The position numbers were made by a program, and so were the translations under genes. Positions 1 to 12,461 of a DNA stretch of 23,753 nucleotides are shown here, one piece after another. The DNA lies in the IMG/VR virus record IMGVR_UViG_3300042731_004146, positions 1 to 23,753 of that record; one strand, given 5' to 3'. Each line of letters opens with the position of its first letter. Within the stretch, counting starts at the first letter, position 1. The notes beneath the pieces were generated by a model, which saw only the letters and a program-made list of their open reading frames with translations, had not been told where the DNA came from and did no database searches. The DNA is from a virus.

Positions 1-241
1 ACACAATGATTTCGTCCACATACTTTACTGCACTGAGCTGTATCTGTCTTTCTATGATGCTCTGTACTGGAGGATTTTTGCTGTCCGGTCTGTCCAGTGT
101 GGGATCATTTTGCAAACCCACAATCAGAAAGTCACAGTGGTGTTTGGCTTCTTCTAACATGGTGATGTGTCCTGCATGTAGCAAATCAAACGTGCTACAG
201 GTGAATCCTATTTTACCGCATCCCTTGTAGTCCAGTTTCAT
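1..241 (-). CDS. Cytidylyltransferase-like nucleotidyltransferase (partial, runs off left edge)
   Basis: The N-terminal ~80 codons of a minus-strand gene are visible, starting at the ATG at 239-241. The translation begins MKLDYKGCGKIGFTCSTFDL and continues LHAGHITMLEEAK, giving the HxGH nucleotide-binding motif of the glycerol-3-phosphate cytidylyltransferase-like family (TagD/GCT fold), followed by a typical IVGLQND segment. Such enzymes transfer CMP or AMP to a phosphorylated alcohol or sugar to make an activated precursor. The start overlaps the stop of the upstream carbohydrate-cluster gene in an ATGA arrangement and has no good Shine-Dalgarno, so translation is probably coupled. This suggests one pathway with that gene. 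The substrate cannot be told from this fragment, and the C-terminus is outside the window. Confidence 0.85.
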   Translation of the reverse strand, partial: MKLDYKGCGKIGFTCSTFDLLHAGHITMLEEAKHHCDFLIVGLQNDPTLDRPDSKNPPVQSIIERQIQLSAVKYVDEIIV

Positions 242-1377
242 CTTGGTATGCCCAACTCCACGTTGGGATCAGTGTTTTCATTCACAAACTCAAAAATGCG
301 CTGTATGTGTTTGATGTCATCCTGGTTACGCACACTACACAGCTCATTGGCAAAATGCAATTGTGTGTTATTGGCCACTGCTAACTCTAAAAGTTCCTGT
401 CTGCGTTGTTGATCGTCTGGCAGGTTGTAAATGCTACACAGCACAATACCACCCACTGTGGTTTGCTCTATGTAACCCTGTAGCCCAGGTAACCAATCCA
501 GAAACTCATTCTCAAATTGGTAATCATTCAACTTGATGTTGTTTTTGGCACAATATTTGTTTATGACTTCACGTTGCATGGGTAAAGGTATACCGCTACC
601 AAATTTGGTGTTCCAAGCCGCATAACTCACCCATTGCTTGTCCACATCCACAGGCCTGCTATCCTCTCGTTCCCCCAGGAATCTGAAATAACCACCAGGA
701 AGTTTTCTACCAAAGTTACCTCCCTTGAGCAACACCCTGCCGTCCATGCTCCAGCGAGTGATATCAGTTTCATTATTATAATTGCCGTGGATATGGTGTT
801 GTTGAAACAGGTGAGCCTGCCCTGGGCCCAGTGTCACTGGCCAGCTATCACCACGACACAAGTCCTGTATTTCCTGGTAGTTGGGCTTTTCCTGATAAAT
901 TTGTCTAGTGATTTCGTCACTGCGATCCCAATCCATGGTCCACATGGTGTTGGTATCATAGCATTTAGTAAACGGTGTCCAGATGGTTCTCAAACCCAGT
1001 CCGTTGCCCACCCATATGCCCTGATGAAATGCCAACAATCGACCCTGTTTTTCCTGGTTGGGTATCACGATCCTGATGGTAAAAAATCTCTGTACCATGT
1101 ACTCATCATCAGGCTCCAGCAGACCAGGCAATACTTCACCATAGTAGTCATCCACACGCTGTGCAAATTCTTCTCTGTCACATGCTTTCTGGCAGTAATT
1201 AGCCAGATCGTATATTTCGTCTGGCGTTAAAATTTCGTGTACTGTTTCCAATTGTTCGATTTGCGGGAATTTTTCTCTGGCAACATTTAGCCAAAACTCC
1301 GGCCAGTTGTGGCGCTGTAAATCATATTCCAGCGTTTGGTTGTCCCATTTGGGATCAAGTTGATTTTTATCGTTCAT
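238..1377 (-). CDS. Two-domain sporadic carbohydrate cluster protein: 2OG-Fe(II) oxygenase-like + LIC12192-like domain
   Basis: 379 aa. Residues ~90-215 resemble the 'sporadic carbohydrate cluster 2OG-Fe(II) oxygenase' family: a proximal His in FHQGIWVGN (H118), an IWTPFT strand, a distal His in HIHGN (H197), and TRWSMDGR, whose R208 is the likely 2-oxoglutarate-binding Arg. Residues ~255-365 resemble the companion 'sporadic carbohydrate cluster protein, LIC12192 family' (IPLPMQREVINKYC, then GGIVLCSIYNLPDDQQRR, then HFANELCSVRNQDD). As I recall, these are normally separate neighbouring genes, so this looks like a fusion. The iron-binding motif reads H-Q-G where H-x-D is expected (see findings). 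It is probably sugar-modifying, with unknown substrate. Transcription likely starts from CATAAATA at 1419-1426. The ATG at 1377 has only a weak GGAA upstream. The family assignment is from memory of conserved motifs. Confidence 0.75.
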   Translation of the reverse strand: MNDKNQLDPKWDNQTLEYDLQRHNWPEFWLNVAREKFPQIEQLETVHEILTPDEIYDLANYCQKACDREEFAQRVDDYYGEVLPGLLEPDDEYMVQRFFTIRIVIPNQEKQGRLLAFHQGIWVGNGLGLRTIWTPFTKCYDTNTMWTMDWDRSDEITRQIYQEKPNYQEIQDLCRGDSWPVTLGPGQAHLFQQHHIHGNYNNETDITRWSMDGRVLLKGGNFGRKLPGGYFRFLGEREDSRPVDVDKQWVSYAAWNTKFGSGIPLPMQREVINKYCAKNNIKLNDYQFENEFLDWLPGLQGYIEQTTVGGIVLCSIYNLPDDQQRRQELLELAVANNTQLHFANELCSVRNQDDIKHIQRIFEFVNENTDPNVELGIPR

Positions 1378-4828: not shown

Positions 4829-5131
4829 TTAGTCTGAACAGGGCTCACAACTTATACTCAGCGGATGACCACTATGCCTGGATATCACTGTGGCTTCGTG
4901 TGCTTTTTGCTCAGCAATTTCCTTGCTGTATACGCCTGCCACTGCTTTGCCTTCATTGTGAATTTCCAGTGTGATATCAGATGATTGCTCAACTGTTTTG
5001 TTAAACACTTCCACCAGTAACTGGATAACAAACTCCATGGGAGTAAAATCATCATTCCAGATAATCACATTGAATCGTTTGGGGTAACTTAGATTAGCTT
5101 GTGTTCGTATTTGTGTCTGTGTTTGTGCCAT
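4829..5131 (-). CDS. clpS: ClpS, adaptor of the N-degron pathway
   Basis: 100 aa, full length. The core matches ClpS: YPKRFNVIIWNDDFTPMEFV carries the N-end-residue pocket Asn-Asp-Asp and the gate Met; EIHNEGKAVAGVY holds the pocket His; GHPLSISCEP is the C-terminal strand. ClpS delivers proteins with destabilising N-terminal residues to the ClpA unfoldase of ClpAP. The phage has ClpX in the window but no ClpA or ClpP, so this ClpS probably recruits host ClpAP. The ATG at 5131 has no normally spaced Shine-Dalgarno; the nearest (GGAG, 5159-5162) is separated by a stable hairpin. It is followed after 2 nt by the desulfurase gene. Confidence 0.92.
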   Translation of the reverse strand: MAQTQTQIRTQANLSYPKRFNVIIWNDDFTPMEFVIQLLVEVFNKTVEQSSDITLEIHNEGKAVAGVYSKEIAEQKAHEATVISRHSGHPLSISCEPCSD

Positions 5132-5163
5132 ATATAAAGGGGCAGGTTCACTGCCCCTCTCCG
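5132..5163 (-). promoter_or_regulatory. Hairpin between a distant Shine-Dalgarno and the clpS ATG (terminator-like)
   Basis: On the minus strand GGAG (5159-5162) is followed at once by an 8-bp stem AGGGGCAG/CTGCCCCT (5138-5145 with 5151-5158, 5-nt loop), then TTATAT and the clpS ATG. Folded, the hairpin shortens the GGAG-to-ATG distance to about 6 nt, as described for T4 genes 38 and 25. It could instead be a weak intrinsic terminator after hsp20 (tail TTATATA). I see no separate promoter for clpS, which favours the first reading. Confidence 0.55.
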
Positions 5164-5166
5164 TTA

Positions 5167-5631
5167 TTAAAGTGTACGGTTGATTTTAATTGTACGAGGT
5201 TTTTCCTCGTCAGGGATAATTTGCTCCAGTTCAATCTTGAGCAAGCCATTATCCAAGTTTGCTTCTTTGACCTCAACATTCTTGGCTAACTTGAACGAGC
5301 GAGTAAACTTGCGCTCTGCAATGCCTTTGTGCATGTACTCATAACTGTCGCCATGATCCAACACTGGGCTTTCACCTGCAATGTGCAATTGATCGTTCTC
5401 GATAGTGATGTTAATGTCTTCCTCACGGAAACCTGCCACAGCAAGTACAATTTCATAGCTGGTAGATTCACCATTGGTGATCTTGGCTACATTGTATGGA
5501 GGATAACCACCGGCACTCGCAAATGAGGGGTTGTCGAAGAAGTCGTTTAGGATTCTGTCGAAGCCCACTGCATTTTTAAAAAGTGGGGTGTTAATAAAGT
5601 CAGAAGTCAATTTTAGATGTTTGCTTGTCAT
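5167..5631 (-). CDS. Small heat-shock protein, Hsp20/alpha-crystallin family
   Basis: 154 aa from the ATG at 5631 (MTSKHLKLTSD), chosen over an in-frame codon 24 nt upstream because AGGAGA lies 7 nt before it. The short N-terminal FDRILNDFFDNP helix, the alpha-crystallin core (YEIVLAVAGFREEDINI, then FTRSFKLAKNVEVKEANLDNG), the GLLKIEL strand and the C-terminal I-x-I motif (RTIKINRTL) are all present. It is an ATP-independent holdase that binds unfolding proteins for later refolding by chaperones such as GroEL, whose gene lies immediately upstream. Marine T4-like phages commonly encode an Hsp20 thought to act on virion proteins. It has its own late promoter (5711-5718) and a stem-loop at the predicted mRNA 5' end. 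Confidence 0.93.
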   Translation of the reverse strand: MTSKHLKLTSDFINTPLFKNAVGFDRILNDFFDNPSFASAGGYPPYNVAKITNGESTSYEIVLAVAGFREEDINITIENDQLHIAGESPVLDHGDSYEYMHKGIAERKFTRSFKLAKNVEVKEANLDNGLLKIELEQIIPDEEKPRTIKINRTL

Positions 5632-5664
5632 AATATATCTCCTATTGTTAAGCAAGATTTATAT

Positions 5665-5705
5665 GTAACTTCGCAGTACCCATTTGGCATACTGCGATTT
5701 GTTAC
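5665..5705 (-). promoter_or_regulatory. 5'-terminal stem-loop of the hsp20 late mRNA
   Basis: On the minus strand GTAAC (5701-5705) pairs with GTTAC (5665-5669), and TCGCAGTA (5690-5697) with TACTGCGA (5671-5678), around an 11-nt loop. The late start predicted from GATAAATA at 5711-5718 is 5705, exactly the first base of the stem. A 5'-terminal hairpin would protect the mRNA; it might also act as a groEL 3' end, but no U-tract follows. Confidence 0.55.
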
Positions 5706-5710
5706 AAGGT

Positions 5711-5718
5711 TATTTATC
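5711..5718 (-). promoter_or_regulatory. Late promoter core GATAAATA for hsp20
   Basis: GATAAATA on the minus strand in the gap between the groEL stop (5728) and hsp20. The predicted start is at 5705, with a leader of about 74 nt. Confidence 0.65.
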
Positions 5719-5727
5719 ACCAGAATA

Positions 5728-7743
<2,016 letters not shown>

Positions 7744-10345: not shown

Positions 10346-11149
10346 CTATTTACCGTAGTTTTCGTCAACGTCCAATCTGATGATGTCTTCCTCACTCAGA
10401 TAATCACCAGCCCACACCTCCACAATGCGCAGAGGAGTTTTTCCTGGGTTGGACAATTTGTGTGATTGTGCTGTCCTCAAAAATACACTTTCGCCTTCAA
10501 GCAGGAAGAACTCTCTGCCGTCCATGTTGCGTGTGGCACCCTGTTTGAGGTGTCCAATACCTTCCAGCACAATCCAGTGTTCCGAGCGATGCAGATGATA
10601 TTGGTCGCTTAGGCTTTTTCCTGGCTCGACGACCAGTTCCTTTACTTTGTATCCTTCGCCATCATACAGTTCCCTGTAATGACCCCAGGGGCGATGTGTG
10701 GTGGGGCTTTCCCAGTTTTTCAGTATCCAACTGCTGCTATTCTGCTTGTCCTCTCCGCCCACACCAAATTTAAATTTCACTTTGATCGATGCTTGCTTGG
10801 CTTTGATTTCTTCGGGGATGTTTTCTTTGGTGCGATCCCCACCGTTCATGAAAATGTATTCGTCTTTGTCTGGGTTACCAATAATTTGCTGAGTTGTCTG
10901 CAAGATTAAATCAAATGCTGAATTGTCATCGTCATTGAAATCCAATACATGGTCCACTGACTTTAAGGACGACACAATTGCCTGGCGATCTGCCAATGGC
11001 ATGAATGCTCTGCCCTTCTTGCGCTCCAACCACTGATCAGTGTTGCATCCAACAACCAGTATGTCGCAGTGCTTTTTGGCATCGTTGATATATGATATAT
11101 GACCTTTGTGGATAGGATCGAATCCACCAGAAATTATTCCGATTTTCAT
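10346..11149 (-). CDS. Nucleotidyltransferase fused to a mannose-6-phosphate isomerase-type cupin
   Basis: 267 aa, two domains. Residues 1-~135 form a cytidylyltransferase-like domain: GGFDPIHKGH (H14 and H17 of HxGH), NTDQWLERKKGRAFM and MNGGDR, much like the RfaE/HldE adenylyltransferase group. Residues ~150-260 match the C-terminal cupin of ManC-type mannose-6-phosphate isomerase/GDP-mannose pyrophosphorylase: RPWGHYRELYDGEGYKVKEL, then PGKSLSDQYHLHRSEHWIVL with metal-binding H185, H187 and E190, then GESVFLRTAQSHKLSNPGK. It could both isomerise and activate a sugar phosphate. Neither domain shows a missing key residue. AGGG precedes the ATG at 11149. The nearest promoter-like element is TATAAC at 11168-11173, without a good -35. 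Confidence 0.85.
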   Translation of the reverse strand: MKIGIISGGFDPIHKGHISYINDAKKHCDILVVGCNTDQWLERKKGRAFMPLADRQAIVSSLKSVDHVLDFNDDDNSAFDLILQTTQQIIGNPDKDEYIFMNGGDRTKENIPEEIKAKQASIKVKFKFGVGGEDKQNSSSWILKNWESPTTHRPWGHYRELYDGEGYKVKELVVEPGKSLSDQYHLHRSEHWIVLEGIGHLKQGATRNMDGREFFLLEGESVFLRTAQSHKLSNPGKTPLRIVEVWAGDYLSEEDIIRLDVDENYGK

Positions 11150-11183: not shown

Positions 11184-12461
11184 CTAAAACAAACAGTAGT
11201 CTGTGTCAATCCTTTCATCACCATTTTCTAATACAAATAAAGGATTATGATTGTTGTCGTTGTCTGGGTACTTATCAAAAATAATTTTTATGACACCAGA
11301 ATCTCGAAGATCCCTGGCTCTGTACATGATGTTGATCACGCTGTTTTCCACTATGCCCCTGATGGCTCTTGCGCCCAGCTTTCTTTCCATGCTGAGTTTG
11401 GCAGCGTCACGTACATATTGGTCACCAAACACCAGTTGTATGTCGTCCAGTCTGAGTAGCTCCACACACTGGTCCAGTACACTGTTTTTCACAGATGTCA
11501 TCACACGGTACATATCGTCTTCGTTAAGTTGTTCCAGTAAGCCCAGCAGCGGTAATCGTCCCATAAGCTCAGGGAGCATACCGTACTCCACTATGTCATC
11601 ATGTGTGATACACAAGGACAGACGCTCACGGTCAGCATCTGTCATAACAGTAGCACCAAAGCCAATAGCAGAACTCTTGCGCATGCGATTTTCCACTATC
11701 TGTTCGATGCCCACAAATGCACCGCCCAGTATAAACAGAACCTGACTGGTATCAAACTCGATGTATTCCTCTGAATATTTTTTACTGCTGTTGACTTTGA
11801 CTTTGCTAGTGGTGCCTTCAATTAGCCTTAACAGTGCCTGCTGCACACCTTCACCACTCACGTCTTTTGTGCTGGTGTTGTTTTCTCCCTTGCGAGCCTT
11901 TTTGTCTATCTCGTCAATATAGATGATTCCCTGTTGTGCTCGCTCCAGATCAAAATCAGCAGTTACTAGTAGACGCTCCAGCACACTCTCCACATCCTCA
12001 CCCACATATCCTGCTTCGGTTAGTGTGGTGGCATCTGCTATGGCAAATGGCACATTTAGTTTTTTAGCAAGTGTTTTTGCAAACAGTGTTTTACCTGTAC
12101 CAGTTGGACCCACGAGCAGTATGTTACTTTTTTCCAGCTCCAAGTCATGAGCACTGTTCTGACGTATGGAATTGTGTCGTATTCTTTTGTAGTGATTATA
12201 CGAACTAACACTGAGTAACTGTTTGGTGCGATCGTGGCTCACTATCCAGTCATCCAGATGACTTTTAATTTCTGTGGGGCTGGGCAAGTAGTCATAATCA
12301 GCTGGGCTGTCGTCTACTGTATGTCCCAAATCGCCCACAACGATTTCATAACTCAGTTTCACGCACTCATTACAAATGTATACGCTGGGTCCTGCAATTA
12401 GTTTGTCTACGTTACTGCGACCTTTGCCGCAGAAGCTGCATGTTAGATTGCCATCTGACAT
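11184..12461 (-). CDS. clpX: ClpX, AAA+ unfoldase
   Basis: 425 aa, the normal ClpX length. The N-terminal zinc-binding domain has its four cysteines (C8, C11, C30, C33). AAA+ parts: Walker A GPTGTGKT (118-125), pore-1 loop GYVG (151-154), Walker B IIYIDEID (~179-186), [18 protein letters not shown], arginine finger in GRLP, and sensor 2 LGARAIRG. The IGF loop that docks on ClpP is kept (AIGFGA, 266-268), so it should pair with host ClpP; no clpP is in the window. The RKH loop, which in E. coli helps recognise ssrA tags, reads KKY (~227-229), hinting at altered substrate choice. GGTGG precedes the ATG at 12461. The gene follows the coiled-coil membrane protein by 15 nt. Confidence 0.95.

Follow-up and report, generated by a model that had tools for sequence, protein, structure and literature searches.

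When glycine stands in place of the iron-binding aspartate of an Fe/2OG oxygenase, which chemistry is left to the enzyme? The question is raised by a gene of an uncultured virus, whose record of 23,753 bases was analyzed as a whole (hereafter the window). A His118-Gln-Gly120 triplet had been predicted on the minus strand of this DNA and was confirmed by its codons (Table 1). The open reading frame, whose product contains the stretch LLAFHQGIWVGNGLGLRTIW, matched two families. NCBIfam TIGR04324 was matched with 70.6 bits at residues 41–215, below the curated cut-off of 150, and TIGR04323 with 49.2 bits (E 4.7e-13), slightly below the cut-off of 55. Since both parts match, each under its cut-off, the gene can be described as a divergent TIGR04324/TIGR04323 fusion. 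At 26 canonical loci, in contrast, the TIGR04323-like ORF is separate and adjacent to the oxygenase gene. Assignment to the sporadic carbohydrate cluster oxygenase family, as originally predicted, agreed with an hhalign profile-profile comparison of the viral and canonical families (probability 99.2, E 6e-20, homologous residues 31–240). The two thus share a His...His...Arg frame and a two-component architecture, and differ in score, in the Gly replacing the iron Asp and in the fusion of the parts. By sequence, the phage gene is a carboxylate-less, fused relative of TIGR04324. No paper on the ‘sporadic carbohydrate cluster’ or LIC12192 was found in the literature.

Table 1. Coordinates in the window of the oxygenase fusion gene, its domains, its iron-site residues and the adjoining gene
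Feature	Position	Strand	Basis
Fusion gene, 379 aa: N-terminal TIGR04324-like Fe/2OG oxygenase and C-terminal TIGR04323-like (LIC12192) domain	238..1377	-	ORF
Oxygenase domain, residues about 41–240	658..1257	-	TIGR04324 match; hhalign residues 31–240; Foldseek phytanoyl-CoA-hydroxylase-like superfamily
LIC12192-like C-terminal domain, residues 260–363	289..600	-	TIGR04323 match
H118-Q119-G120: proximal iron His, then Gly replacing the iron-binding Asp	1018..1026	-	Codons CAT CAG GGC at 1026-1018
Arg130, accompanying Gly120 in 58/62 HxG rows	988..990	-	Alignment
Gln193 (distal His minus 4), invariant	799..801	-	Alignment
His197, probable distal iron ligand, invariant	787..789	-	Alignment
Arg208, presumed 2OG C5-carboxylate anchor, invariant	754..756	-	Alignment
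Cytidylyltransferase-like gene, overlapping, downstream, cut by the window end	2..241	-	Pfam CTP_transf_like 3.1e-11

We observed that His118, His197 and Arg208 are invariant across 64 aligned phage-type sequences, so that the distal His and the Arg are kept, as had been claimed; Gly120 occurs in 62/62 rows of the HxG group. Canonical TIGR04324 members, on the other hand, carry H-x-D in all 26 aligned sequences (25 from bacterial genomes, one viral), usually in the form H[AST]DVW[SD]GDSP, and H-x-D was also found in all four viral contigs bearing canonical genes. The family motif given in the original prediction was accordingly right as to H-x-D but not as to its flank, which reads VWSGDSP instead of VWSGN. 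From His118 to His197 the profile-profile alignment is gap-free except for one residue in a helical insert. As no gap lies around the motif, the Asp-to-Gly change is an unambiguous substitution in a single column, and this column is exactly that of the iron ligand, as proposed.

Scans of IMG/VR returned up to 329 relatives. Among the retrieved phage-type sequences 99 distinct ones were HxG versus 2 HxD, which rules out a one-off mutation or sequencing error as the source of Gly120. When the phage motif was scanned for with HxD/E in place of HxG, only two contigs matched, those of L030 and L031. That the whole family might carry Gly at this place had been considered from the start: this is so for the phage subfamily, apart from the rare HxD forms, but not for the canonical family, which has Asp. 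Gly120 is encoded by all four Gly codons, and dN/dS of close pairs was about 0.03–0.12 where dS was measurable, many pairs being saturated at synonymous sites. Both observations argue against decay. Gly at position 120 is fixed in the phage subfamily and is no defect. Three queries of 50,697 reference phage records gave no relative of the oxygenase gene, and none was present in PHROGs. In L004, a tandem paralogue lies upstream of the oxygenase (4853-5986), with similar copies in L006-L009, L012, L013 and L040; this paralogue is HxG too, but reads HQGIWYGHGPGMYSIW and has a divergent C-terminal domain.

A fixed Gly could also mark a dead or non-redox protein, whose domain would only bind metal or sugar while the LIC12192 part, or the fold serving as a scaffold, does the work. 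Pseudo-enzymes are usually recognized by a missing catalytic ligand, and neither of the two domains has a known activity. However, 62/62 HxG rows retain the two His and the Arg that anchors 2OG, under strong purifying selection, which speaks against a dead enzyme because some lineages would be expected to lose them; moreover, a related HxD form occupies the same locus in L030/L031. We judge such inertness improbable. That the protein is an active two-histidine Fe/2OG enzyme working on sugar is well supported.

How, then, would the vacated iron site be completed? One answer is a carboxylate from elsewhere, for instance that of Asp212 or of the substrate, which would make the protein an ordinary hydroxylase. 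In the viral family Asp212 never varies, and the model puts it on the strand that carries Arg208. However, the viral HxD pair has it too, and canonical HxD enzymes have a conserved Asn there; Asp212 therefore does not stand in for the lost ligand. In the alignment of phage-type rows, no acidic residue is conserved in the HxG form yet absent from the HxD form; a compensating acidic ligand particular to HxG was thus not found, and the Asp or Glu elsewhere that the original prediction had set against itself did not appear. We consider a borrowed carboxylate slightly more improbable than an inert protein.

The features of a halogenase-type site are present: HxG for HxD/E, with the distal His and the 2OG Arg retained. 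In its two-His site with Gly/Ala for the carboxylate the protein resembles SyrB2, CurA, WelO5, BesD and AdaV, while it differs from these Fe/2OG halogenases in its sugar context, a different substrate class, and shares with them about 10–13% identity by structural alignment. The original prediction had taken HxG for a ‘hallmark’ of halogenases. This does not hold: human AspH, a 2OG hydroxylase, naturally has a two-His site and yet lacks halogenase activity (PMC6817910, PMC13168262), and the Asp-to-Gly variant of prolyl 4-hydroxylase performs neither hydroxylation nor halogenation (PMC2767507). Of the halogenase prediction, the family, the lost carboxylate with both His and the Arg kept, and the sugar setting stand, with no acid specific to HxG; chlorination is thus possible.

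AspH offers a second model, in which water would fill the vacant site and the sugar would be oxidized without halide by a two-histidine hydroxylase (or epimerase/desaturase). The precedent is established (PMC10947486, PMC6817910, PMC13168262) and the phage enzyme, like AspH, would hold its iron by two His only. Furthermore, no triad residue is missing in the canonical TIGR04324 relatives, and the hydroxylase PtlH (1-deoxypentalenic acid 11-beta hydroxylase) gave the best PDB sequence-profile match, albeit a weak one (E 0.005), and is a top structural match; it differs from the phage protein in reading HQDG for HQG and in its terpenoid substrate. Against this model, removal of the Asp abolished hydroxylation in prolyl 4-hydroxylase (PMC2767507). 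The phage family also differs from AspH in the lack of a Pfam match to PF05118 and in the residue at the offset of Asp721. In AspH, the open iron position is occupied by a water that Asp721 fixes, and this Asp is believed to impede the binding of halide (PMC13168262). At its offset (distal His725 minus 4), all 62 HxG rows carry Gln193, which also speaks against the AspH-like model, though the equivalence is by sequence offset only. Gln in place of Asp721 tips the balance slightly towards a ligand that can be exchanged, such as halide, although this is tempered by the presence of Gln193 in HxD forms as well.

Position 130 was considered likewise. The viral HxD pair has Leu there, and canonical HxD enzymes mostly have Val, Ile or Leu. 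Arg130 as a signature of a halide site was, however, weakened by L216, which combines a basic residue (His) at 130 with Asp120, and by PtlH, whose corresponding stretch contains an Arg. With Gln193 in HxD forms and His130 in L216, neither position 193 nor position 130 is diagnostic. L216 itself, from a genome belonging to the order of the Pelagibacter MAG, has both domains matched within one open frame (320 aa, minus strand) with HxD kept (HTDYWYGHGKNTHTVW), and is a possible intermediate towards the phage fusion.

Two-His sites are thus known to halogenate or, as in AspH, to hydroxylate, for which reason we favour only tentatively, at rather less than an even chance, that the enzyme chlorinates its sugar substrate; AspH-like oxidation is a serious alternative of slightly lower probability. 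In the chlorinating scheme, His118 and His197 would be the only protein ligands of Fe(II), and Arg208 would anchor 2OG, as their conservation suggests. Gly120 would vacate the iron site and let in a small anion, most likely chloride, possibly with assistance from Arg130 and/or Gln193. A ferryl intermediate would then take a C-H hydrogen from the substrate, and chloride instead of hydroxide would rebound to give a chlorinated sugar. The substrate is probably a nucleotide-activated deoxy- or amino-sugar to be built into surface polysaccharide or into a glycan of the phage, and the fused LIC12192-like domain presumably handles this same sugar.

The predicted structure does not separate the two chemistries. 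The AlphaFold2 model of the fusion protein (pLDDT 95.4, pTM 0.91) adopts the double-stranded beta-helix fold of Fe/2OG enzymes, and its best PDB matches by Foldseek were the CurA halogenase domain, ThoJ, TlxIJ, SptF, SyrB2 and PtlH. The predicted fold is that of the superfamily of SyrB2 and the CurA halogenase domain; being common as well to hydroxylases, to the HxD relative L030 and to the epimerase SnoN, it also suits the AspH-like model. A control model of L030 (pLDDT 93.9) matched the CurA/SyrB2 structures better (3.1e-8) than the window protein did (1.5e-7). This match thus reflects superfamily and not chemistry, and structural likeness to halogenases was dropped as a sign of function.

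We also compared the HxG enzymes with their natural HxD relatives, which are ~60% identical to them and sit at the same locus. L030 and L031 form a phage HxD pair with the gene order of HxG copies such as L016, less two or three genes found in the latter. L040 has a third HxD copy, which is broken by a frameshift and lies beside an intact HxG paralogue. The HxD pair differs from the HxG rows at eleven positions, five of which fall within residues 119–130, where the joint switch from HxG to viral HxD comprises Q119K, G120D, I121E, V123T and R130L. Free trees nested L030/L031 inside the HxG clade with L015/L016 as their neighbours, and the relative root-to-tip spread doubled when the root was put on the HxD branch (0.41 vs 0.20); all polarity trees had very distant outgroups. 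AU tests, on the other hand, did not reject a single HxG clade (p 0.585, 0.743, 0.342). Weighing the nested trees, this clock-like argument and the gene order against the unrejected clade, a Gly-to-Asp reversal, in which the L030/L031 lineage would have regained Asp, is favoured but not statistically settled.

The sugar-related setting described in the original prediction was borne out by dehydratase, aminotransferase and cytidylyltransferase neighbours and by one bacterial polysaccharide cluster. Around the HxG oxygenase, an NAD sugar epimerase/dehydratase was found at 71/160 loci (duplicates of the same contig included), and other neighbours were radical SAM proteins, aminotransferases and cytidylyltransferases. 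The cytidylyltransferase-like gene next to the oxygenase in the window, whose product is likely the partner supplying the nucleotide sugar, belongs to a sequence cluster found at 17 loci including the window; sulfotransferase, methyltransferase and cytidylyltransferase/mannose-isomerase-cupin genes lie further off in the window. On a 957-kb Roseivirga MAG contig, the neighbours of the oxygenase copy are genes for GDP-mannose 4,6-dehydratase, a fucosyltransferase-like protein, glycosyltransferase and ABC-2 transporter, a setting that suggests surface polysaccharide. A StrB1-like inosamine-phosphate amidinotransferase was found near the oxygenase at 51 phage loci (duplicates included), for example at L202:4915-5964 (PDB 1bwd, E 2.6e-88); together with the nearby aminotransferases it suggests that the phages make a guanidinylated amino-sugar or cyclitol.

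Halogenase genes are known in aquatic phages, and the viral halogenases described in the literature consulted are flavin enzymes (PMC10452541). The tryptophan-halogenase-like genes of cyanophages and the marine viral halogenase of Gkotsi et al. 2019 belong to this flavin type, with unrelated fold and chemistry. A narrow literature search found no paper on an Fe/2OG halogenase acting on carbohydrate. If the phage enzyme chlorinates, it would count among viral Fe/2OG halogenases as well as among carbohydrate halogenases, neither of which we found reported, and halogenated surface sugars would be expected on phages or bacteria. The wider proposal, namely a virus-borne family of Fe/2OG halogenases common among uncultured phages, whose members chlorinate nucleotide sugars destined for surface glycans, with one lineage back to H-x-D forming a natural halogenase/hydroxylase pair, is doubtful. 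Even if the enzyme hydroxylates, a large fixed two-His family with close HxD relatives provides a ready system on the choice between halogenation and hydroxylation.

Other genes were noted at these loci. Often directly 3′ of the oxygenase (56 loci) lies a gene for a 167-aa protein with a PYHTDQY motif, as at L202:7098-7598; the L202 protein matched no family and may be a second 2OG-type oxygenase. Within the window, the ORF at 10346-11149 fuses a cytidylyltransferase-like domain to a mannose-6-phosphate isomerase/cupin domain. Finally, the ORFs at 5728-7347, 5167-5655, 4829-5131 and 11184-12461 were assigned by eye as GroEL-, HSP20-, ClpS- and ClpX-like, which brings together chaperone and protease-related genes on a single phage fragment.
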